This document shows positions 1-32,460 of a DNA stretch of 36,929 nt, piece after piece; the stretch's first letter is position 1, and the number at the start of each line of letters is the position of its first letter. This DNA is from Saccoglossus kowalevskii (lineage: Eukaryota; Hemichordata; Enteropneusta; Harrimaniidae), in the NCBI RefSeq assembly GCF_000003605.2, contig NW_003137825.1, positions 675,586-712,514 of the forward strand, given 5' to 3'. The notes below the pieces were generated by a model. That model had not been told where the DNA came from. It searched no databases and was given only the letters and a program-made list of their open reading frames with translations. A program made the translations under genes and the position numbers.

Positions 1-2062
1 ATGTCTCTCGCCCGTCACGCCATGACCCAGTTTCAACCACACGGCCATTTTGCAACAAGTGCGTGACCCTCGGCGTCACCCGACTGACTATATGATCGTT
101 CTGTTCAACTGTTAAGCTAGGATTTATTACCGTTATTATCATTATATTGTCACATGATTTATTTTACCTTATGTGTAATGTCTTAAGTATCTTTATTGTA
201 ATTTGTATATACCAATTCGTATATACCGAGGAAACGACCCCGATTGAAGGTCATGTATTTTGTGACGTCACCAATTCGTGTGTAGGTACGGCTTCTAGAT
301 CCGTGCCGATAAAAAATAATTATCGAATTTTAATAACGATTTCCTTCAGTGGCCATTACTGTAAATGTGTATCCATCAACATTATTTGTAAGTGTCAAAC
401 TGTCATCTGTAAAATTACTTTTTCTCAGTACTTTTGACTCTCAGAGTTTATTATGAAAAAAGTTATCAACTAATGTATATCGATGTAAGTAAGAAATGAA
501 AAACGAAAATATTTATAATCTTATCCACAATTGTACTCAGTATTGTTTTTTTGTTGCAATACCCAGTACCGGTATACTGATACATTTAGGAACGCCTTTG
601 TTTCTAAAGATGTAAACGGGCACAAGAGGGCGGCAAACATAGACAACGTAAAACCTGACCATACTGTGCGTAGCCGCATATCCCTCAAAGCAGTGATACA
701 ATGACCTGGCAAAGGCTGCTTACCTTCACTTATGAATGTCGTGTGCAATCACAAGCAGTGAAAGGAAACATGTTATTTCGTTCTTCAATTTTCCCTCCGC
801 TGAGCAAGGGCCCCCTATCCCCGCCGACATCAACACATTGTACATGCTGTATTTGCCAATATTCCAGTCTAAAAGTATTCATTTGAAAGAATTAACTGTA
901 GAAAATTATTTTGATGACAACCATGCGGTTAATTTTATCGTTGGCTATTTGGTTGAGTCGTGATATTGCATGTAATTTGCGTAAGTCTGTTAGGGGTACT
1001 TTTCGTCTGATTCGTTGCATCAGATGCATTGTGGGTAACCAATCCGGCGGAAACATTCGAATTATTTTGCTGGGTAGTATTGGCCAAAATATAACAAGGA
1101 CGGCAGTGGGGTGTACGTTTCTTTCCACTTTAGTATGCTTATTTTACCGTTTATATCCTGGAACAATTACGGTAAAATTAATTTTGAATAATGCGATATT
1201 AGTACCAATCGCGCGATGATAAACAAAATGTGGTATGAGAGGATTGCTGGCATAACACCCTCAAAAATGAAATGGTAAAGTCCACCACATGACGTAAGGA
1301 GGTAATACGGACTTCCTAAATTTCTGGAAGTGGTGCGTGTGGGAGAAAGTTCGGTAGAGGATTTTGCAGATTTGAGAATATCCGGCGAAAAATATACCAT
1401 AGAGTTTATTCCAACAAAACCATTGATATTCATTATGGTGTTTTGGTTTGAACAATTTCACCAAGTGAGTATTTGGTCGTCACATGTTTTGCGCTCGGGA
1501 AACAGTGATTTCGCGTCGATCGTTCTATTGTTTTGAACAATAGAGTTGTTCTTCGAAGTGTGGTATGAACCGGGAATATATAGTGTTCGATGTCGTTTAT
1601 CGCCAACCGCTTTATCATAATCGATGAAACTTTCAATGAACTAAAGTTCTAGTTAACTGGTTATCTGCAATGTATTGCGGCTACAGAGGACTGTGTCTAT
1701 GACCTTGAGTTGTGAGCGATTTTCGTGATACAGTCGAAAGTGCTCTCCGTGCTGTCACGGTGTTTGTTTTTTGAACTGTAACAACAAACCACAACCTAAA
1801 ACTTGACACGTAAAGCGTCTGTGATATTGAACTTGTGATAATTAAAAGATCGTGGATCTACAGAACCGACGCCAACTGGTCATCCTATTGCTTTCATTGG
1901 GATTGTGTTTGTAAACAGGCCCGGAAACGTGAAGCCGGGTTGCTACATGATCGGATGTGTCCCTTGCTTTCATGCTTGATTACTGGTTGGTGAATCATTT
2001 GTATTGTGATTCGAATCGTAAATATATTATTCTATACCGAAGTTGATTTAGAGAGACTCACG
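1..2062. other. Upstream region of the Kir gene, no gene recognised
   Basis: Several short open frames exist on both strands, but none has a recognisable motif, a convincing exon border or family similarity. The stretch should carry the promoter and 5' UTR of the Kir channel gene. A TATATA-like string lies near 1576-1583, and AT-rich sequence runs up to the coding start, but I cannot place a transcription start. A CTCF-like word lies at 619-634. Confidence 0.5.
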
Positions 2063-3268
2063 ATGAGCATGACGATGGCGAACATTGATTCGTATGCACC
2101 GATGCCCTCCAACGGTACAAAACAAGAGGTAGTGAGTGTAGAAGGCTATGCAGGAGGAAAAACGCTCGCCTATCGCACGTCATCACGTGGAAAAAGCACT
2201 CAGAAATATCGTATGGTTGATCAGGATGGTCATTGCAACATATCCCACAATTCTCCCCGCAAGCAGAACTATCGATTTTTGGCGGACATATTCACTACAC
2301 TTGTGGACATTAAATGGCGATATAACTTGACAGTGTTTACACTTGCATATGTCCTCAGTTGGCTCATCTTTGGTGCAGTTTGGTGGGTACTTGCTTTGCA
2401 ACATGGAGACTTAGTTCCTGAAAACATTGAGAATCCTGAATGGAAGCCATGTGTTGTAAACGTTCATTCTTTTCCTACAGCTTTTTTGTTCTCCCTTGAA
2501 ACCCAGACAACAATCGGTTATGGTTCTCGATCAGTTACTGAGGAATGTTGGGTTGGAATGTTGTTGGTTGTCTGTCAGTCAGTTGTCAGCTGTATTGTTG
2601 ATGCAGTGATGGTTGGGATAGTTTTTGCCAAAATTGCTCGCCCAAAGAAGAGAGCTGAGACTTTGATTTTCAGTAAGAAGGCTGTTATTACTCTGCGAGA
2701 TGGAAAACTCTGTTTGCTGCTCAGAATTGGAGATATTCGCAAAAGTCACATTTTGGAAGCTCATGTTCGCGGCGTTGTTATTCAAAAGCGTGTCACAAAA
2801 GAAGGCGAAGTCATCCCATTGTATCCGTATGATTTAGACGTTGGGTTTGATCGTGGTTGGGACAGAATATTTCTTGTGTGGCCGATAGTCGTGGAACACG
2901 TAATTGAGAAAGAAAGTCCCTTTTACGAAATGTCAGCTTCTGACCTTGAACATGGTGATTTTGAACTAGTTATAGTCTTAGAAGGCATTGTAGAAGCAAC
3001 GGGAATGACAGTACAAAAACGTACTTCATACCTACCGCATGAGATCTTATGGGGATATCAGTTTGATCACCAGTTGGTTGCGCTGCATGATGACGATTAC
3101 CATGTGAATTACTCTCATTTCAACACTGTTCATCAAGTGTCAACACCACGGTGTTCTGCTAAGCAACTTTACAATATGCGTGATGTTGGTGTTGGAGAAG
3201 GTGATAGTACCACAGGTCCTAATGGTAATATTCCCTTAACTACTTACAACGTGGAGTCAGAACTTTGA
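2063..3268 (+). CDS. Inward-rectifier potassium channel, Kir2/Irk type
   Basis: Pore-forming subunit of a tetrameric plasma-membrane K+ channel that sets resting potential (family knowledge). The 401-residue frame has a cytoplasmic N-terminus, TM1 (about 87-112), a pore helix, the filter TIGYG (150-154) and TM2 (162-191). Cys130 and Cys162 match the pair that forms the extracellular disulfide in Kir channels. Asp180 in TM2 is the residue that gives strong polyamine-dependent rectification in Kir2. PKKR (194-197) and RKSH (226-229) match PIP2-binding sites. Asp263, Asp267 and Glu307 match the cytoplasmic-pore acids of Kir2.1. The protein ends ESEL, a class I PDZ ligand like the Kir2 tail. The FCYENE export motif of Kir2.1 is not seen. 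The coding region has no intron. The frame is open upstream to 2006, but the first in-frame ATG is at 2063; ATGs at 2069 and 2075 are alternatives. Paralogue identity within Kir2 is not settled. Confidence 0.96.
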   Translation: MSMTMANIDSYAPMPSNGTKQEVVSVEGYAGGKTLAYRTSSRGKSTQKYRMVDQDGHCNISHNSPRKQNYRFLADIFTTLVDIKWRYNLTVFTLAYVLSWLIFGAVWWVLALQHGDLVPENIENPEWKPCVVNVHSFPTAFLFSLETQTTIGYGSRSVTEECWVGMLLVVCQSVVSCIVDAVMVGIVFAKIARPKKRAETLIFSKKAVITLRDGKLCLLLRIGDIRKSHILEAHVRGVVIQKRVTKEGEVIPLYPYDLDVGFDRGWDRIFLVWPIVVEHVIEKESPFYEMSASDLEHGDFELVIVLEGIVEATGMTVQKRTSYLPHEILWGYQFDHQLVALHDDDYHVNYSHFNTVHQVSTPRCSAKQLYNMRDVGVGEGDSTTGPNGNIPLTTYNVESEL

Positions 3269-4640: not shown

Positions 4641-6530
4641 AGGTAATATTCATTATTACATAGTGAAAATTTTAATAGATATTCAATTACTCAACATCAT
4701 TAGCTAACATTGTTTTCTTAAAAATTAAAATACATGTTATAATGGGTGAACTTACTATGCCAGGCATTGTATATCCATCCCTGCAACAGGTGTTGTATCA
4801 AAAAGCCAATTCACTATTTTGTACATGTACTACATGTACTTTAATCAAATTACAAGTATTCTGTGGAGTAGCCAAAAATCCTACTTTGGAAATCTAATCA
4901 GTCAATTGTCAAATTAGCTTATATCGAATCGCTCTCCCTTCACTGATACTAAATCCCCAGTCCTTACATGGCCTTCCTATATATATCCAGATTAATATTA
5001 ATCTTAGTTCCGTTTTAGATAATCCTATGACTCTATTACCAAGGTAATGCATATTTAGTTCATAAAGCACTTATAATAGCCTCTAAATAAAGAAAAAATG
5101 TTTCAATTCAAAAATTACTGACAACTATTAAATTCACTACGTTCAATTACCCACCATAGACTCGGGCCAGTCAAACCCTCGCCTAATTTTTTGCTATTTT
5201 AATTATTTGTGTAATAAAGATATTTCAAAATATCTAGAGCTAAATAGTTGTCTTTAAAAGTTTAATTTTTCAGACCTTGTTGAAATCACAAATTAATTGT
5301 TAACACTGATTTCAAATTATTAACCGATTAAATATGAACTTTTTATAGACAATATACATCCCACAAACATTTTTAGAAGATTTAATTAAATATCAAGTAC
5401 TTCCTGTGAATAGCATACCTGGCACTATGATTGAATGGTTAATATTAAGTTAGTCATTAAGTTTCAAAGATATGTGTATAAAACAATCATTTATTAACTA
5501 TATTGAATACTTATGTTTGAAGCATTAGCCTAATTCCTGCTTGTGAATAAATTGAGAATAAATTCAATAATTTAAAAAAGAAAAAAAGTAAAGTATTACA
5601 AATTTACTAATTTGCTTTCACCCAACAGTGTGTTTTCCCCCGCATCAAAGTATGGTAAGCTTGTCGTTTTTAGCTTCCAGGCCACCATACTTGCTTACCA
5701 TAATAGGAATCAGGATGCATTGTTTACATTCATAATTACAACTAACAATTATGTCTTGTCCACTGTAATAGTTGAACTAATAGTAATACAGAGAAATGGT
5801 TCCTTGGGCTGCCCCTAACCAGCCACCTGGTGTAATTGTATATGCCCCTCCAGATACATGTACAGGTTCTGAAGAGGGGTTTGTATAATATAAATGGGTG
5901 AGGGGCAGGTTTAGGATTAGTTATGAATGAGTGAGCCCTAAGGAAATCTTACTGCTAACTATTGTAGAGAGAGAAATATTACTGTTTAATATTAGTGGAT
6001 TTGAAGTTGCAGAGACTTATACTAGGTTTTAAAAATCACTGGTTTGCGATGGAGGCAATACACTATTGTTGAATTAGAATATTTACCAGTTTTTAATTTA
6101 GTTGTCGGTAAAATGGGTGAAAAGTGTGGATTATCAGGATAAATGAATGGCCTGAACAAAAGGTCACATAAGGGTGGTATAACAACACTCAAATAATCCG
6201 CTTTCTTTCAATTTGTTTGCATGCATTTGAAATCTGGTGAAATCAAGGTCAAATTATGGTCACTTTAGTAGTTATTTTTAGGTATGCACGATTTTGGTGG
6301 CATGCTTTGATTGTGGCCCTATCAGGTTCACCAGCAACCCCAAAATAGTCTATTGTGAAATGCCTGTGTAAGCACAGCACCAATTACCTTGCTTGAATTG
6401 TCAAAAAAACTATCCATTGTTATGCTTTGAACCACTATTGATCATGTGACCAAATTCTCTGACCATATCCCCTTTCCCCTGTTACTTGCCAACTACTAGT
6501 TGCCCTTGTTGATTTTTGGGTCATTTTATG
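4641..6530. other. AT-rich non-coding interval
   Basis: No gene is recognised. The first AATAAA words downstream of the Kir stop codon on the + strand are at 5086-5091 and 5213-5218. If the Kir transcript ends there, its 3' UTR would be about 1.8 kb; this is only a possibility. Confidence 0.4.
5086..5091 (+). terminator. Candidate Kir poly(A) signal
   Basis: First AATAAA on the + strand after the Kir stop codon, followed by an A-rich run and a second AATAAA at 5213. It is distant from the stop codon, so use is uncertain; ATTAAA variants occur closer. Confidence 0.25.
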
Positions 6531-6535
6531 TAATA

Positions 6536-6793
6536 CTGTAGAATACTTTATTTATTTTTATGTAATACTGTAGAATACACATGTACTTTATTTATTTTTA
6601 TATAATACTGTAGAATACTTTATTTATTTTTGCCATTTTCGCTGAAGGGATGATTCCGTGAAAATAAAATCCCGCGAATATACTTTTTTTCCTATATTTC
6701 ACATTAAACTCATCAAAAATCAGTGAAAATAAATTCCATACAAAACGCCTTTTCAGCGAAAATTAATTCCAGCAAAAATAAAGTATTCCACAG
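6536..6793. mobile_element. CTGTA-type MITE (family A) with triplicated left end
   Basis: The full element is 6608-6793, starting CTGTAGAATACTTTATTT and ending in its near inverted repeat AAGTATTCCACAG, flanked by TA on both sides. Two extra copies of the left terminus lie just outside, starting at 6536 and 6568, so the left end is present three times in tandem. It shares internal sequence with 16916-17123 and 19332-19538. TA flanks point to a Tc1/mariner-type transposase acting in trans; no transposase is encoded. Confidence 0.8.
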
Positions 6794-24310: not shown

Positions 24311-24527
24311 TCAAGTTTTCTTTTCTATTTTCTTATCTTTTAATTTCACTTTGCCGCGTAATTTAGGAACTCCGTATCCTCTTCTTTTCAAATATGGTAC
24401 TATATCATTTAATGATACTGGCGGCAAGTAGTCTGCGATTTTGGTTCTGTCCCACCACTGACCACGCTTGGCCGATTCACTACCAATTTTTGTATATGTA
24501 TATCTATAATGTTCCATACGTATGTAT
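24311..24527 (-). CDS. LMF1: LMF1 exon 11 (terminal)
   Basis: Acceptor GTCACCAG; completes Arg, then YIRMEHYRYTYT, GQWWDR and LPPVSLNDIVPYL, ending in a Lys-rich tail and TGA at 24313-24311. The Lys-rich tail (KVKLKDKKIEKKT) could help ER retention; that is inference. Confidence 0.93.
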
Positions 24528-27500
24528 CTGGTGACAAATTATAATATCAATCAGTCAGCTAAAATGTTGGCTGTACGTTTTCATATATAATATACTAAAT
24601 ATGGGTGTCTGCACTGACAAAAGAGACCAAAAAATTCAGGATATTATGAGGATATTACGAGAATACCTCAAAGTATGCACAAAGATAGTACAGCTGGAGT
24701 ATTGACCGACGTGCAGCGGAGGTCGGTGTGTGGCATACTGTCTGAGTGCATACTTTGGGGTGTTTTTGTAATATACCTTATTATTATACATCTTTTATTC
24801 CAAGGATACACCATGGGAATGCCAAAATCAAAAATGTTTAGAACAGAATCAGCAAACTCCTTTGTGTTGAATCCAGTCAAACTCTGGTGGCAGCCATGTT
24901 TGTTTTTATTATTAGAGGATGCTTACACAAATAATCATTCCATATTTGGAATTTGCATTTCCTAATATGGTAGGATAAAAATACCCTGTAAAATGCCGCA
25001 AAATTACAGCTTGCTGTAACTTATGGCGTTACAGTGATAGATGTATAATAATATATTTTATTACATTCAATGAAATTTTCTCTCAAAAACAATCACTTTA
25101 GCAACAGTTAGCAAACTCACACTGATGACGGCTACTTTGTAAAACAGGTTTGCTGCTCAGCTTAGAAAAAATTGTACTGGTGATTTAAGATATCTTGAAC
25201 TAGAAATAGAAGATTTTCTTACCGTGGTGGATCAGTATCTTGAAATGGATTATATGCGATAAGATCCAATGTGCTCTCATCATTTACCATAAACTTGGCA
25301 GCTAAGTGGAGCAACCAGGGATTTGATTCATAATTCTATGTAATTGAGAAACAAATATGTATTTATAAGTGTGACATATCATTATAGTTTTATAATCTAT
25401 GATGAAGTATGCTGAAGATCCCACAGATCACAACAAATCGCAAGACAAACACATTTTAAATACATTGTACTAAGAATATGTTTTTTGAAGCATCCTTGCA
25501 TAATAATGTATACACATATTCCATCTTCAAAAGAAAATCTGTGGTAACCTCGCTCATTCTTGTTTCCATAATTACATACAAACTACACTGCTATTGGTCA
25601 AAACAAATTTGATTAATTAACACATGTGTAGATTTCATATGCAGATATATGAATTCCATTTTTCACAAATTGTGCGAGTTCATGGAATATGATTGTGAAT
25701 ATCTTCATCGTTTATCACTGTGCATGGATGAAAGTTGAATCCCTTTAAATTCATCCTAAGTGAGCAAGGCTTTGCAAAGCTGAAAATTTCTGTTACTTTA
25801 ATATTGTAACAATGATGTATAATTTTACAAAAAAAACTCGCGACATAGAACAAACAATTTAAAACTTTAGATCAATGGTTTAAAACACATATTGTTGCAT
25901 TATTATGCATTATTCACTGATGACATAGACAGCGCCCTCAGTGTTGAACATTGAGAGAATGCTACTGACATCAAACACAATACAATTTTCAGGTTTGATG
26001 GAAATCACTCAAAAAGCTAAAATTGTTTTCTTCTATCTATTGCCATCTATAAATACTGCTAGAATATCCTAACCTGGAATGCAGCAAACCATATGAGCCA
26101 GTCAAGTCGATAGTGATATGGTGATATTAAACATGGCCTCCTGGTAACATTACCAGGTTTACATTTGAATTCATACTCCAACCAGACAGCTTCTGGACTT
26201 CTAGGACGTTCACTTAAAGTGCCCTGTATTATCACCTCAGTTCTCTCCTTGGTGACGCTGAAATTACAAATTGACCTACTGTTTACATGGTAAAATTGCG
26301 GAGAATCATATACTGGATGTATATGTGATTTTATTTTAAAAGTAAATATGGTGAAAGTCATCACTGACTCCCTGACGCATTTTTTCCCGAAACTCACAAT
26401 AATTTGTCTTTTGTGAAATTAAAGCAATTTATATTTTGTAGTTACTTAAAAATTGTCAGCTTAAAAACCCAACATATTCTGATATTGTTTTGTAATTAAA
26501 ACAAATTGAATCAAACATCAAAAAGCAATGTAAACTAATATTAGTGATTGCATAGAATATCTATAAAAGATTTCCCTATTAATTTACTTCATCCATTGGT
26601 ATATATGGCAAAGCAAATTAAATTAAATGTGTGTAGTTTCTCATACACCAGGTCACATAGTATTGTTGCCAGGAGTTGTTGATGTGACTTATTGTGTTGT
26701 GGTTATTTTGTTTTGTTTTCAATGAATTAGCTCTATTTCTAATGTAGCCAATGTTATGCAATTGTTTTTGTCGTTCTGAAGGCTGATTTGAAAGTTACCA
26801 ATTTTACCTCTAGTGAAATTTCCTTCCCTCAAAAGTTGATGTAACACTGCTGCTGAACATGATGAACATAAAAATGGTTTGATCGAACAGTTCTGACCAC
26901 ATAACAGTCTACAGACGATGTCAATGACACTGCCAGTAATTCACCTGAGAATGTTGCTGTATTGGTTTATGAAACATAATGGCTGAGAGAGTAATTTCAA
27001 TAGAGCAACAAGATTTGAAATGTACAAAGATGAATAAATTTCCAACCTTCCAAATGCTCCATATGTATTGACCAATCGTAGTGAATCAAATGATGTATTC
27101 ATGGCTTGATACTTGGAGAGCAGATTCTGCACAACTGGTATACTCAGATAGGCTATCAGGATACCAAGCGAAATACTAACAACACGACGAACATACATTC
27201 CTGAGAAGAAAACAAATTCATTTGACATCCGATATGCTTTGTAAACGGTACTCCCAACGAATAGTTATCCCATACATAAACATTATCTTTGATATTAAAC
27301 AAATGATGTTTTTGTAAGCAAAGAAAAAAAGTGGTGTTATAATTTAATTCATAATTGATAGAGTCATTTCATTCAGAGATTTTAATTACTGTACCAGCTC
27401 TATTACATTGTGTAGACATTCTGGAAGTTTGTGATATACTGTATTTGTTCTATTAGTAGCGCATGCAGGTAAATGACTGAGGGTTAATTGTACATGTAAT

Positions 27501-30500
27501 TTGTGATTTTTGCTCACTTCACTTTCATATAATAGATCAAATAAAGAAAAAAAAATAATCCCCACATCTTTAAAGGATGGTGGTCGTGAAAACAATTCAT
27601 CATGTTTGATATAGATCCCATCCAACATGTGTACAATTGTGTTAAAAATAATGGTAGAAGAATTTCAAAAGCATGGTGCTCGACAACCCCTGACCTCCAA
27701 CGACAAGTGTCACATGAATTTACCCCATGTAGTTCTTGGTCCAGTACCCGTTCTTGCTTCCCGCTGTATCATACACACTTTGTGTTTGGCCCATCCTTCT
27801 GAATTGGAGAATAAGAAAGCATAGAACTTATCATCCATACAGCACAGAGATGGTAAAATAGTCAGCCAGTTCAGAAAACTCAGATTACCACTGATGATAA
27901 GAACCACCTGTTGTAAACAGATTTGATTTTGTGAGGGAAAATTTTCAATAATTCATATACTGTAAAGGGGTCAATCATTCACTGGGTTTTAATTTTGTTT
28001 ATTTTGCTGACTGGAAAATGTGTTAAATTAAAACCCAGTGAATATGTAAAATTTAGCATAGAACACATTATCTAAATGATAAAACCGTGAATTTAAAACC
28101 TACTGAATATGTCAGAAATGATAAATCAGCGAAATTTAAACCCAGTGAAAATTAGTCACTTTACAGTAACGTCAGTTTAAAATCATGTAATTTTGCAGTG
28201 ATAAAAATGTCTCCTGGGAACTCTAGCACAGAGTCAGCACAAAATCATCATATGGCGAAAATTCCTAATACATGTAGCAAAAATTAAGTGGTTTACAGTA
28301 TTGCAGATCAGTAGATCAGCATTGCTAGAATTATTGTTTATATCAATGAATGTTTTTTTAATCTATTCTATAGTTAAAATCAACCACTCCCAAAGTTTGC
28401 ATTCCCACTTTCTTTAATCTATATAAAACCTTTCCCTGAGCTCTGTAGGCATTAAAAGTTCAGGAGAAATCTTATTCATCAGTCTCAAAAATGAATTAAG
28501 AAGATTCACTAAAATATATGCAAGTAATTAAAAAAATTATGTTTGATTTAGTGATTAAACACCAAGACCTTCAGGCAGTCTAGGTTCAGTTTTCTAATGT
28601 TTCACAATTTGTCGCCAGACCAATTAATTTCATCATTTCTTACCTGGAACAACACCTGGAAAAGGCCTCCAAGAATGATGGCTGGTCGCCATGGTATCCA
28701 AATCAAGAATGGTGCCACCAGCTCAATGAAATGGTTGACGAGAGTTTCAAATTTATGAAAGAATTCAGGTTCTTGGTGCATGTAATAACTGATGGGATTT
28801 GGCACAGGTTGAGTCTGTAAAAAAACACAAAATCTTGTCAATTACTCAAATTGTACACCAACTGAAAACCCATTATTGACAATCATGATACCTATAGGCT
28901 GTGACTATTTTAAAGTCCAAAGAAAATATGGGCATCCAAACTAGTTTTTGAATTATGAGAGTCAATTTCATGTATTATATTCAGAATCCAGGGATTAATG
29001 ATAGTTTTCATAGCATCCTTGGCATTATTTAAGCTGGTAAAAATTTTGGTGGTGAAATTACAAGAATACCATACAAAAAAAATAACAAATCTAGTCTGTA
29101 AAGGCTTTCAGAAAAATCAGAATTTGTAGTGATTTAAAAATGTCCGTCATTCTCTAATTAGCCATGTCGATCCTTTTTACTTGTTTTGGGTTATCTAGTT
29201 AATGGTATTACAAATTATATAATTCTAATTCTGCAGAAGAGTACAATTACCATATTTGCTTTATTAGTAGCACTTAGTAGCAAGTTTTATGAAAAAATGA
29301 AAAATTTCCCAAATTTAAGCAGCCATTTGTGTGTTGTGGATAACAATAACTTCTATTGAAACAGTGGAATACAATTGCAGTATTTGACCTATAATTGACC
29401 TTTCATCATTTGATATGAAAAAGTACAAAACTGGTGCTTTGGTTTTTACTACATGTGTGACCACCAGAATCATGTTTTTTTTTAAAAAAGAAAGTAATGA
29501 CATACATACCTCATAATGATAGTTCATACAAGTTAAGTCTCTCCAGCATTGGTCACCTCGGATTTTAATCAAACCCTGAAAAACATAATAATAAATATCA
29601 TGACACAAAATAGTTAATTTTATTTAAACTATTTTAATTATAATTTCTAGACATTAGGTAATTAAAGAGAAAGTGAGCACTCTGATTCTTCATATCAGTA
29701 TGTACAGGTAAATACACTAATAAATGTAAGATTATACTTTCTAGAGTTATCGTATTTTACTCCTATTACGACATTAATTTAATTAATTATCATAAATAAT
29801 GTCATAATCAACATTCATGTCATTATAGGCATATTTGGGGGGCTGGTACATGTATAAAGTGGTACTTGAATTTTGATTAATGTAATTTTTATTGCAGCAA
29901 AATAAAATTGTTCTAAGAGAATGAGATCATAGTAACAATTGTTGCTAAGGCCAATAACTGAATGTTCTTGTCATGGATCAGATGAATTATTGTGGGTTCT
30001 CGCATAAGAATAAGGCCATGGAATAAATGAACAGCACAGCAAACCTTGTGTGGTTCATTACTTACAGCACCTAGCATGATTCTAAATATGAGCCATCGAT
30101 AGCCTAGTATAGTAACCAGTGGTGTGGGTGTCTTCCGTGGTATCTGTCTCCATGTTAACAACGGACACATGAATATTGCTAAGAACCCAGTCTCCAAAAG
30201 CTGAGATTCCCATCCTGTGAAAAGTAAAAATTCACCCACCTTGTCATGCTCAAGTGGTATACTAAGTATCTGCATAGTTGGGTTATACAAATTAATGAAA
30301 AAAATATATATGATGTTCATATCGAACATAACTGAAATCAGCATAGAATGAGATTCAAATATTAAATTTCAAGGCTCAATATACATACATACTATATTAT
30401 GTATCTGTACAAAATTGGCCAAAATGAGTCTGAGAAATAGGTATAGACTCAAATATTGTACAAAATGGCTGCCAGTCTGCCATTTCAAATCATATCGGTA

Positions 30501-32460
30501 TATTGAAAACAAATCTTTATATATTGAAATGTGCCTGCCAAAGAAAGAGTATGAATTTAGAACCAAAATGCCCGACATCTGGCTAAAAATAATCTGATGA
30601 AACATGAAATAAAATTGACCAGAGAATGTTCAATATATTATGTCAAACAGACTCGCATCATTATCAGAATATCATTAACTACTTACCAAATGAATACCTG
30701 AATAAAAAAATGGAAAAGAAGTAAATTTGTTTCATCATTAAAATACATTGTATTCTGATCATAGTGAAAAAGCTGGCAGTGAGGTAAGTAAGTTACTCAT
30801 AAAAAAATTGTGATTTACTATTGGAACATTCTTTTGTATCTTGCAACACTGATTACTGATTGGATGCGGCTCAGATCATTTCAAAATTTAATTTTTGACA
30901 TCAAATTTATAAAATAAGAAAAATATTTGGTGTATTTTTGGTGTCTACGTCTGTACCATTTGATGTACTCACCATCTCTGCCCAACGTTGACAATCGAAT
31001 GATACAGTATCCATAGCAATGTCATAACAACCATATTGCTACATCCGCAAACAGTCACCAAGATAGCTAACACCAATCCAATTGTTGCTATAGCATCAAG
31101 ATAAAAGTCTACATCATTGATGTCACAAAACCACAGTATGGTTGGTACAGCATTAAGACACTGATGAATATCATGTTGGAAATGTTCTTTGATTTGGAGC
31201 ATGAACACGTTTACTGGAAGTAAACCATTTTTTCCGAGTAAAGCCCGGTTTTGATGCAATGCTACCAAGAATGCTACAGCTGAAAAAAAATTATTTAACA
31301 GATGAATGAGTAAATCTCAGAGAACATATTAAACAGTTCAAAATTGCATTCTTTAAAACAAAATGATCACCAGTTGGCCATTTCGAGACAATTTGACAAA
31401 GTGACATGCATTAAGATGCCATAAAATTCAATGTACATACCAAGTTTGAACAAAATCTGTCTATGCATGACTGAGATACAGACGAGGTATTTCAGAAATG
31501 ATTGATTTTGATGAACTTTTAACATAAAAACAATTGCATATTGGCCATCAGATATAACAGTTATTATTTAGTAACCAAATGACTAAATATGATAACTATA
31601 TTTTCTGTACATTTTCGATGTATTACATTTTTTCACTATGAATGTGGTAATACATGTTTTATTGATTATTACAAACCGCCTATTTCATGTCAGAAGGTCG
31701 TAGCATCAGTCTCGCTATCTACGAGATGAGACTTGAATGGAATCTTGGCATGATGTCACCATACAGTACTATGCGCATTGCAAACCCTAAGAAATGTGCC
31801 TCTGGTTTAACTGACTTTGATTAATACATAGACCTTAGAAAGGGATATGATTAGTAGCATATCAGAAAAAATGAAAGAAGCAAAATGTACTTTTAATTGC
31901 TTATGGACTTGTAAAATTATGAAATTCGCTATGATAAATGTTGATCTATGTATAGTATTGGTGTATGCCGGAGAGTAAGTAAGACATGTGTACTACTTTG
32001 AATAGCACCGTATACAACGCGTGTAAAATTCGAACTCGCGCTGCGCAATGACCACCGCCCTTTAAGTTGGAATTTGGGAGAAGCTTAGGTAACATTCTCC
32101 GCACATGGCGTTAAAATAAGGATGAAATCGGTACAGCATGTTCAAACAGACCGAAGCCAGCTGGCCGACTCGGAGGCAGGGTTGGGACACTAGTACGTGC
32201 ATAGTCGGTAGTACATGTACCATGGAGTACTCACAATAAATAAAGGCGAGGGACCTCAAAAACACGATCCGCGTCAGCCAATATGTTCCGGGTTCAAGCT
32301 CCATAAGACCGTTGTTTTTAGTTTTTATTTCTTTCTCGTCATGACTGTCTGCGACCTTCGCTTTGCCCATCGGGTTGTTTTCATCCGAATCGTCGCCCTC
32401 TTCATTGGTCCTCGTTCTCCGTCGCCGAAGCTGACTGCTGTCATCGGATTTGTCGGCCAT
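24311..32460 (-). CDS. LMF1: Lipase maturation factor 1, 11 coding exons
   Basis: LMF1 is a multi-pass ER membrane protein needed for folding and dimer assembly of secreted lipases such as lipoprotein lipase (vertebrate knowledge); its clients here are unknown. Coding exons in transcript order: 32460-32235, 31279-30973, 30697-30687, 30214-30066, 29575-29510, 28814-28644, 27907-27724, 27200-27047, 26257-26074, 25335-25223, 24527-24311. They total 1782 nt, giving 593 residues plus TGA (human LMF1 is about 567). All introns are GT-AG and all phases fit. Family landmarks: YWLTRIVFL (TM1), PTILWF, GWESQLLETGFL, RWLIFRIMLGA, GLIKIRGD, CWRDLTCM, HFIEL, SGNLSFLNWLT, NTYGAFGS, KERTEVI, FKCKP, CLISPYHYRLDWLIWFAAFQ, and C-terminal EHYRYTYT. 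WESQLLETGFL and the C-terminus favour LMF1 over LMF2. The charged N-terminus (about 57 residues) is poorly conserved, as in relatives. Nothing suggests a pseudogene. Confidence 0.95.
24648..25034. repeat. Dispersed foldback repeat, copy 2
   Basis: Same orientation as the copy at 4303-4640, lying in LMF1 intron 10. Inverted arms are 24648-24691 and about 24735-24779; the loop again carries GACCGACGTGCAGC. It has about 30 bp after the arms that copy 1 lacks, and ends in TTATGGCGTTACAG. An open frame through it is not shared by copy 1 and is not taken as coding. Confidence 0.8.
25223..25335 (-). CDS. LMF1: LMF1 exon 10
   Basis: A short exon: NYESNPWLLHLAAKFM through AYNPFQDTDPP plus two bases of an Arg codon. 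The acceptor ends in TAG rather than CAG, donor GTAAGA. It aligns with the family's segment between FAAFQ and EHYRY. Confidence 0.92.
26074..26257 (-). CDS. LMF1: LMF1 exon 9
   Basis: Acceptor TTTCAG; encodes VTKERTEVIIQGT, YEFKCKPGN and CLISPYHYRLDWLIWFAAFQ. Donor GTTAGG, phase 0. Human truncating alleles causing lipase deficiency fall in the corresponding C-terminal region. Confidence 0.95.
27047..27200 (-). CDS. LMF1: LMF1 exon 8
   Basis: Acceptor CTTCTCAG; encodes MYVRRVVSISLGILIAYLS and LVNTYGAFG, ending in AG of a Ser codon. The donor GTTGGA is weak but is the only one that gives the conserved GAFGS-TKER junction. Confidence 0.9.
27442..27543. mobile_element. Possible short MITE in LMF1 intron 7
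   Basis: TATTTGTTCTATTA at 27442 and TAATAGATCAAATA ending at 27543 form imperfect inverted ends. A similar left end, ATTTGCTTTATTAGTAGC, occurs near 29254 in intron 5. Confidence 0.35.
27724..27907 (-). CDS. LMF1: LMF1 exon 7
   Basis: Starts VVLIISGNLSFLNWLTILPS. The end is set at donor GTAAAT (27723-27718) because it leaves one base that joins GA of exon 8 to give Gly in the aligned segment TTWGMYVRR. Confidence 0.9.
27960..28166. mobile_element. CTGTA-type MITE, family B, in LMF1 intron 6
   Basis: Starts CTGTAAAGGGGTCAAT and ends GTCACTTTACAG, with TA on both flanks (27958-27959 and 28167-28168). Words AAACCCAGTGAA and TTCACTGGGTTT recur in inverted order. Related fragments lie near 3684-3731 and 11583-11650, and a solo end of similar type near 28225-28300. 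Confidence 0.7.
28644..28814 (-). CDS. LMF1: LMF1 exon 6
   Basis: Fifty-seven codons starting TQPVPNPISYYMH and including KFETLVNHFIELVAPFL. Acceptor TTTTACAG, donor GTAAGA; phases 0/0. Confidence 0.95.
29510..29575 (-). CDS. LMF1: LMF1 exon 5
   Basis: Twenty-two codons, GLIKIRGDQCWRDLTCM followed by NYHYE. Acceptor TTTCAG, donor GTATGT; both phases are 0, so skipping would be in frame. Confidence 0.95.
30066..30214 (-). CDS. LMF1: LMF1 exon 4
   Basis: Acceptor TTTTCACAG; encodes GWESQLLETGFLAIFMCP and RWLIFRIMLGA, two of the most conserved stretches in the family. Donor GTAAGT at 30065-30060, phase 0. Confidence 0.95.
30687..30697 (-). CDS. LMF1: LMF1 exon 3, an 11-nt micro-exon
   Basis: GTATTCATTTG lies between TTATTCAG and GTAAGT. 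It completes the Trp codon left by exon 2, adds Tyr-Ser-Phe and starts the Gly codon that exon 4 completes, producing W-Y-S-F-G-W-E-S as in vertebrate LMF1. Skipping it would shift the frame. Confidence 0.88.
30973..31279 (-). CDS. LMF1: LMF1 exon 2
   Basis: Acceptor TTTCAG; completes a Ser codon, then VAFLVALHQN, GKNGLLPVN, PTILWF and a long hydrophobic pair of helices ending VNVGQR plus TG of a Trp codon. Donor GTGAGT. Confidence 0.95.
32235..32460 (-). CDS. LMF1: LMF1 exon 1
   Basis: Residues 1-75 plus one base of codon 76. ATG at 32460 is chosen because it opens a hydrophilic, Arg/Asp/Glu-rich cytosolic-type tail leading directly into TM1 (YWLTRIVFLRSLAFIY). Donor GTGAGT at 32234-32229. 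Confidence 0.92.

Follow-up and report, generated by a model that had tools for sequence, protein, structure and literature searches.

Regulated neural microexons carry a UGC-type enhancer immediately 5' of the acceptor. Neural microexons whose lengths are multiples of three were reportedly described by Irimia et al. in 2014. A study of plants (PMC8831610), whose conserved microexons measure 1-15 nt, puts the share of lengths divisible by three at about 80% for human microexons, as against about half for the plant ones. The human MPC1 gene contains a coding 4-nt microexon, and no skipped form of it was observed (PMC9929638). Here we describe an 11-nt coding exon of LMF1 in a stretch of 36,929 nt from Saccoglossus kowalevskii; the whole of the analysed stretch is hereafter called the window, and all coordinates are window positions. 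Like the neural microexons, this is a very short coding exon of an animal gene, but the former are regulated and preserve the frame, whereas the 11 nt found here break it. The plant microexons are likewise short, old and often unannotated, although they belong to plants and to other genes. The MPC1 microexon is also coding, not a multiple of three, frame-critical and conserved across species; it differs in gene and length, and it depends on 67 nt of upstream sequence that include a pyrimidine-rich stretch. In the window, a T-rich tract adjoins the acceptor of the LMF1 microexon. MPC1 is the closest functional parallel among these systems. The 11-nt exon is a known kind of element rather than a new type, apparently real and easily missed. 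The plant study agrees with a remark made in the initial annotation of this locus, that predictors usually miss exons this short (PMC8831610). A predictor that missed the 11 nt would call LMF1 frameshifted or truncated in animal genomes, and such a call could be misread as gene loss. We found no description of this exon in the titles and abstracts of the LMF1 papers that our searches listed, and in PMC8931337 the word "microexon" occurs beside LMF1 only within a reference title.

LMF1 lies on the minus strand of the window and was rebuilt from 11 exons, which join into 1782 nt (593 codons plus stop) with no internal stop codon, GT and AG being present at every intron. The coding part of exon 1, from the ATG, occupies 32235..32460 (226 nt, with GTGAGT at its end, phase 1) and exon 2 occupies 30973..31279 (307 nt, phase 2). 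Exon 3, the microexon, lies at 30687..30697 between introns of 275 nt (30698..30972) on its 5' side and 472 nt (30215..30686) on its 3' side, and is followed by exon 4 at 30066..30214 (149 nt). The remaining exons are exon 5 (29510..29575, 66 nt), exon 6 (28644..28814, 171 nt), exon 7 (27724..27907, 184 nt), exon 8 (27047..27200, 154 nt, ending in phase 2), exon 9 (26074..26257, 184 nt), exon 10 (25223..25335, 113 nt) and exon 11 (24311..24527, 217 nt, with the TGA stop at its end). The deduced protein matched the Pfam families LMF1 (PF06762; residues 179-339, 227.6 bits with a cut-off of 27) and LMF1_C (PF25179; residues 414-557, 176.8 bits with a cut-off of 34.2), and position 1 of the LMF1 profile fell on residue 179, within the microexon. 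A comparison of the protein with the sequences of solved structures yielded no match up to an E value of 1, and a scan of viral contigs for relatives gave two pattern matches, neither of which was a relative.

A scan of genome contigs with six search patterns identified 12 bacterial loci (L001-L012), each encoding an LMF1 homologue in a single ORF. The record titles of these loci name Verrucomicrobia, Polyangia, Myxococcota, Deltaproteobacteria, Chloroflexi and several actinobacterial genera, and the LMF-like proteins are full-length. Their identity to the window protein was 38-49% over about 500 residues. If the LMF1 of the window were a pseudogene or an assembly artefact, the gene would be broken and the 11-nt match coincidental; the level of identity to all 12 homologues, the 593 open codons over 11 exons and the intact intron ends all speak against such an explanation, which we consider extremely unlikely.

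The microexon consists of GTATTCATTTG (30697-30687, minus strand), preceded by the terminal T-rich tract TTTTTTTATTCAG of the upstream intron and followed by GTAAGTAG, the first letters of the downstream intron. Exon 2 ends in GAGATG and exon 4 begins with GATGGG, so the TG and GA ends and the GTAAGT donor given in the initial annotation were borne out. The spliced junction reads TG/G TAT TCA TTT G/GA, in which the 11 nt encode (W)YSF(G), and the protein across the junction is GQRWYSFGWES. As a short block of 11 nt bounded by AG and GT within coding sequence, it fits, by sequence, the class of microexons, here taken as internal coding exons of at most 30 nt. The 593-codon join and the restoration of W-Y-S-F-G uphold, at the level of sequence, the earlier proposal that this block is a coding microexon of LMF1. 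Among 720,000 introns of the same make-up simulated with a first-order Markov model, 16 contained an AG-11 nt-GT block coding in frame for Y-(S/G)-(F/Y)-G; a smaller run yielded 1 of 60,001 with the same set of residues and 4 of 60,001 when a broader set was allowed.

The junction could be aligned without gaps in all 12 bacterial homologues. Tyr179 and Gly182 were conserved in 12 of 12, Trp178 in nine (Phe in three), Ser180 in nine (Gly in three) and Phe181 in ten (Tyr in two), figures that should be read with the search in mind, because the octamer QRWYSFGW, which spans the motif, was one of the six search patterns and the homologues were thus partly selected for it; L001, L003 and L004, in which the octamer is absent, were picked up with other patterns.

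The initial annotation had held that only this block would both restore W-Y-S-F-G and keep the frame. This stands for the motif, but it does not for the frame, since 86 splice choices that keep the frame were enumerated. These comprised nine cassette exons, the 11-mer among them, from a search for exons of 1-400 nt between AG and GT within the interval (a smaller enumeration of cassettes of up to 150 nt found eight). The other 77 were direct joins through shifted sites, for which the donor could be any GT of exon 2 or of the 60 nt that follow it, and the acceptor any AG at most 60 nt from the start of exon 4. When the products were scored with a profile built from the 12 bacterial homologues, that of the 11-nt exon came first of the 86 (629.5 bits), each of the 85 others scoring below it, with 606.3 bits for the second and 494.6 bits for the lowest. 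The 77 direct joins raise the question of whether exons 2 and 4 might simply be joined by way of shifted sites, there being no microexon at all. The second-ranked choice is of this type: it joins a donor 14 nt 5' of the end of exon 2 to an acceptor 25 nt 5' of exon 4, keeping both frame and length, and gives VNVGEFLLFTGWES. However, it is 23 bits worse on the homologue profile, its pairwise scores were lower with 12 of the 12 homologues, and its sites are poor (donor 2.1 bits and acceptor -14.7 bits, versus 6.96 and 9.84 bits for the microexon). We therefore regard a direct join as highly improbable.

A candidate exon of 354 nt at 30593-30240 (minus strand), in the intron 3' of the microexon, was likewise rejected as a bridge, because the reading frame would run into a stop at the very first codon. 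This decoy exon has many stops in the needed frame, with an acceptor of 14.2 bits and a donor of 9.6 bits, and it could be a poison exon or a product of chance.

Within the gene, the splice sites of the microexon were typical in strength: in a leave-one-out comparison, the donor ranked fifth of 10 (6.96 bits) and the acceptor third of 10 (9.84 bits), and when the matrices were derived from the gene's remaining sites they ranked 21st among all 436 GT and ninth among all 382 AG dinucleotides in the gene, these matrices being rough, with nine sites each. The donor of the microexon was weaker than that of exon 2 (6.96 versus 9.07 bits, leave-one-out), and the decoy acceptor (AG ending at 30594), downstream in the same intron, outscored the acceptor of the microexon (14.2 versus 9.8 bits). 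The block opens with GT directly after AG, and CAG/GTATTC might thus be read as a recursive splicing point, that is, a zero-length exon at which the donor is rebuilt and then removed. A recursive site combines an acceptor with a usable rebuilt donor, but the donor rebuilt here, ATG/GTATTC, scored only -1.4 bits, against 6.96 bits for the real donor, and full use of such a point would remove the 11 nt, at the cost of the frame. The resemblance is better seen as a by-product of coding, because a W codon split after TG forces GTAY from the W-Y codons, and recursive splicing at this position is very unlikely.

Human LMF1 has 11 exons (PMC7068683), the same number as the gene in the window. In the variant table of PMC9820378, exon 2 holds c.491 (V164A) and exon 4 holds c.540 (T180) and c.543 (G181). 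Human exon 3 must therefore lie within c.492-539 and have a length of at most 48 nt, a bracket that depends on the exon labels of this one paper. The same numbering fits the exon labels of two other papers: PMC7068683 assigns c.428 to exon 2 and c.746 to exon 6, and the second places c.697 in exon 5. Human V164, T180 and G181 align with V174, T190 and G191 of the window protein. As the offset is 10 on both sides, the window microexon is predicted to correspond to human c.504-514. Thus, human exon 3 (NM_022773.4) resembles the window microexon in being the third of 11 exons, located between V164 and T180 and no longer than 48 nt; it differs in being known as a bracket, with c.504-514 derived from the alignment, whereas the 11 nt were read directly in the window.

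Six human boundaries could be read from the variant table (193/194, 663/664, 729/730, 897/898, 1232/1233 and 1416/1417), and all six agreed in phase with the window gene, including the phase 1 end of exon 1 and the phase 2 end of exon 8, the comparison covering human LMF1 alone. Exon lengths in human and window were 66 and 66 nt for exon 5 (c.664-729), 184 and 184 nt for exon 9 (c.1233-1416), and 168 and 171 nt for exon 6 (c.730-897). A comparison of gene structures with vertebrates had been proposed as a check on the microexon, and human LMF1, with a short exon 3 at the equivalent place and matching phases at all readable boundaries, agrees with it. Place, order and shortness, as judged from the bracket and the residue alignment, all correspond between the two exons. 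Taking these data together with the junction, the homologues and the splice sites, we hold with considerable confidence, for the explanation as a whole, that the 11-nt block is, by sequence, a genuine, frame-critical exon 3 of LMF1, having passed every test that could be made on the sequence, and that it is probably orthologous to human exon 3, old and not species-specific. The common ancestor of Saccoglossus and vertebrates would then already have had two introns 11 nt apart in a formerly continuous coding stretch.

The initial annotation argued that skipping of the 11 nt would abolish the protein, and the predicted consequences support this: translation would keep W178, add 43 foreign residues and end at a stop codon within exon 4, leaving seven exon junctions downstream. 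Retention of the upstream intron (30698..30972) is predicted to give a stop at codon 179. Decay is expected for a skipped or intron-retaining transcript. Skipped transcripts would thus probably be degraded rather than form a regulated isoform. At 11 nt, the exon probably offers too little length for exon definition; its recognition more likely relies on the T-rich acceptor and the GTAAGT donor, together with intron definition over the two short introns of 275 and 472 nt that flank it. Work on PRP-40 favours intron definition for microexons (PMC8378409). The microexon is most likely included constitutively, as far as the sequence of the locus can indicate. Several points run counter to this reading, among them the stronger decoy acceptor and the alternative splicing of 283 of 411 Drosophila microexons (PMC8042270). 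Constitutive Drosophila microexons tend to have donors that outscore the upstream donor (PMC8042270), the opposite of the situation here, and four other human microexons that are not multiples of three, and that are unskipped in endogenous mRNA, were significantly skipped in minigenes with the nearby introns only (PMC9929638).

It had also been suggested that the exon might act as an on/off splicing switch, in which skipping dependent on tissue or state would turn LMF1 off through the frameshift and nonsense-mediated decay. The predicted foreign residues, exon 4 stop and seven downstream junctions would suit such a role, as would the strong decoy acceptor in the intron, which could compete, and 283 of 411 Drosophila exon-microexon-exon cases are alternatively spliced (PMC8042270). 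However, TGCATG does not occur in the 758 nt that separate exon 2 from exon 4, and the 100 nt upstream of the microexon contain a single TGC, at about -81, so that a UGC-type enhancer near the acceptor, as in regulated neural microexons, is lacking; nor is the length of 11 nt a multiple of three, the usual, though not strict, mark of that class. Coding-region microexons of Drosophila also favour multiples of three (PMC8042270), and the human MPC1 microexon remained unskipped even when decay was blocked (PMC9929638). No positive evidence for a switch emerged, and regulation is not something that one sequence can show; human LMF1 has an exon 3 of at most 48 nt in the corresponding place, and the MPC1 parallel is constitutive (PMC9929638). 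We therefore consider a regulated switch improbable and favour constitutive inclusion of the microexon.

According to PMC7068683, an earlier study with an expression assay found LPL activity to be reduced by the human variant p.Gly172Arg. Human Gly172 corresponds to Gly182 of the window protein, the codon of which is split G/GA over the junction between the microexon and exon 4. Because a single-base change from Gly to Arg must alter the first base of codon 172, p.Gly172Arg hits c.514, the base with which human exon 3 is predicted to end. The variant may plausibly disturb splicing as well. We tentatively raise the possibility, itself rather doubtful, that the microexon is an ancient vulnerability of LMF1, at which p.Gly172Arg does harm twice, by changing the residue and by causing the 11-nt exon to be skipped with a frameshift. 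If this were true, a cDNA assay would be blind to the harm done to splicing by this variant. Our searches on LMF1 showed no mention of a splicing effect of p.Gly172Arg. LMF1 is a human hypertriglyceridemia gene, and variants in or near exon 3, p.Gly172Arg in particular, may pose a risk to splicing that has been overlooked.

Elsewhere in the window, a scan for tRNAs and Rfam families found none. The plus strand carries an open frame of 424 codons at 1994-3268, apparently intronless, for an inward-rectifier potassium channel; it matched the Pfam families IRK and IRK_C (queried from 2066), and its nearest solved relatives were Kir2.2 chains, followed by Kir2.1 and Kir3.2. An AT-rich short tandem array with a period of 32 and 3.1 copies is located at 6524-6631.
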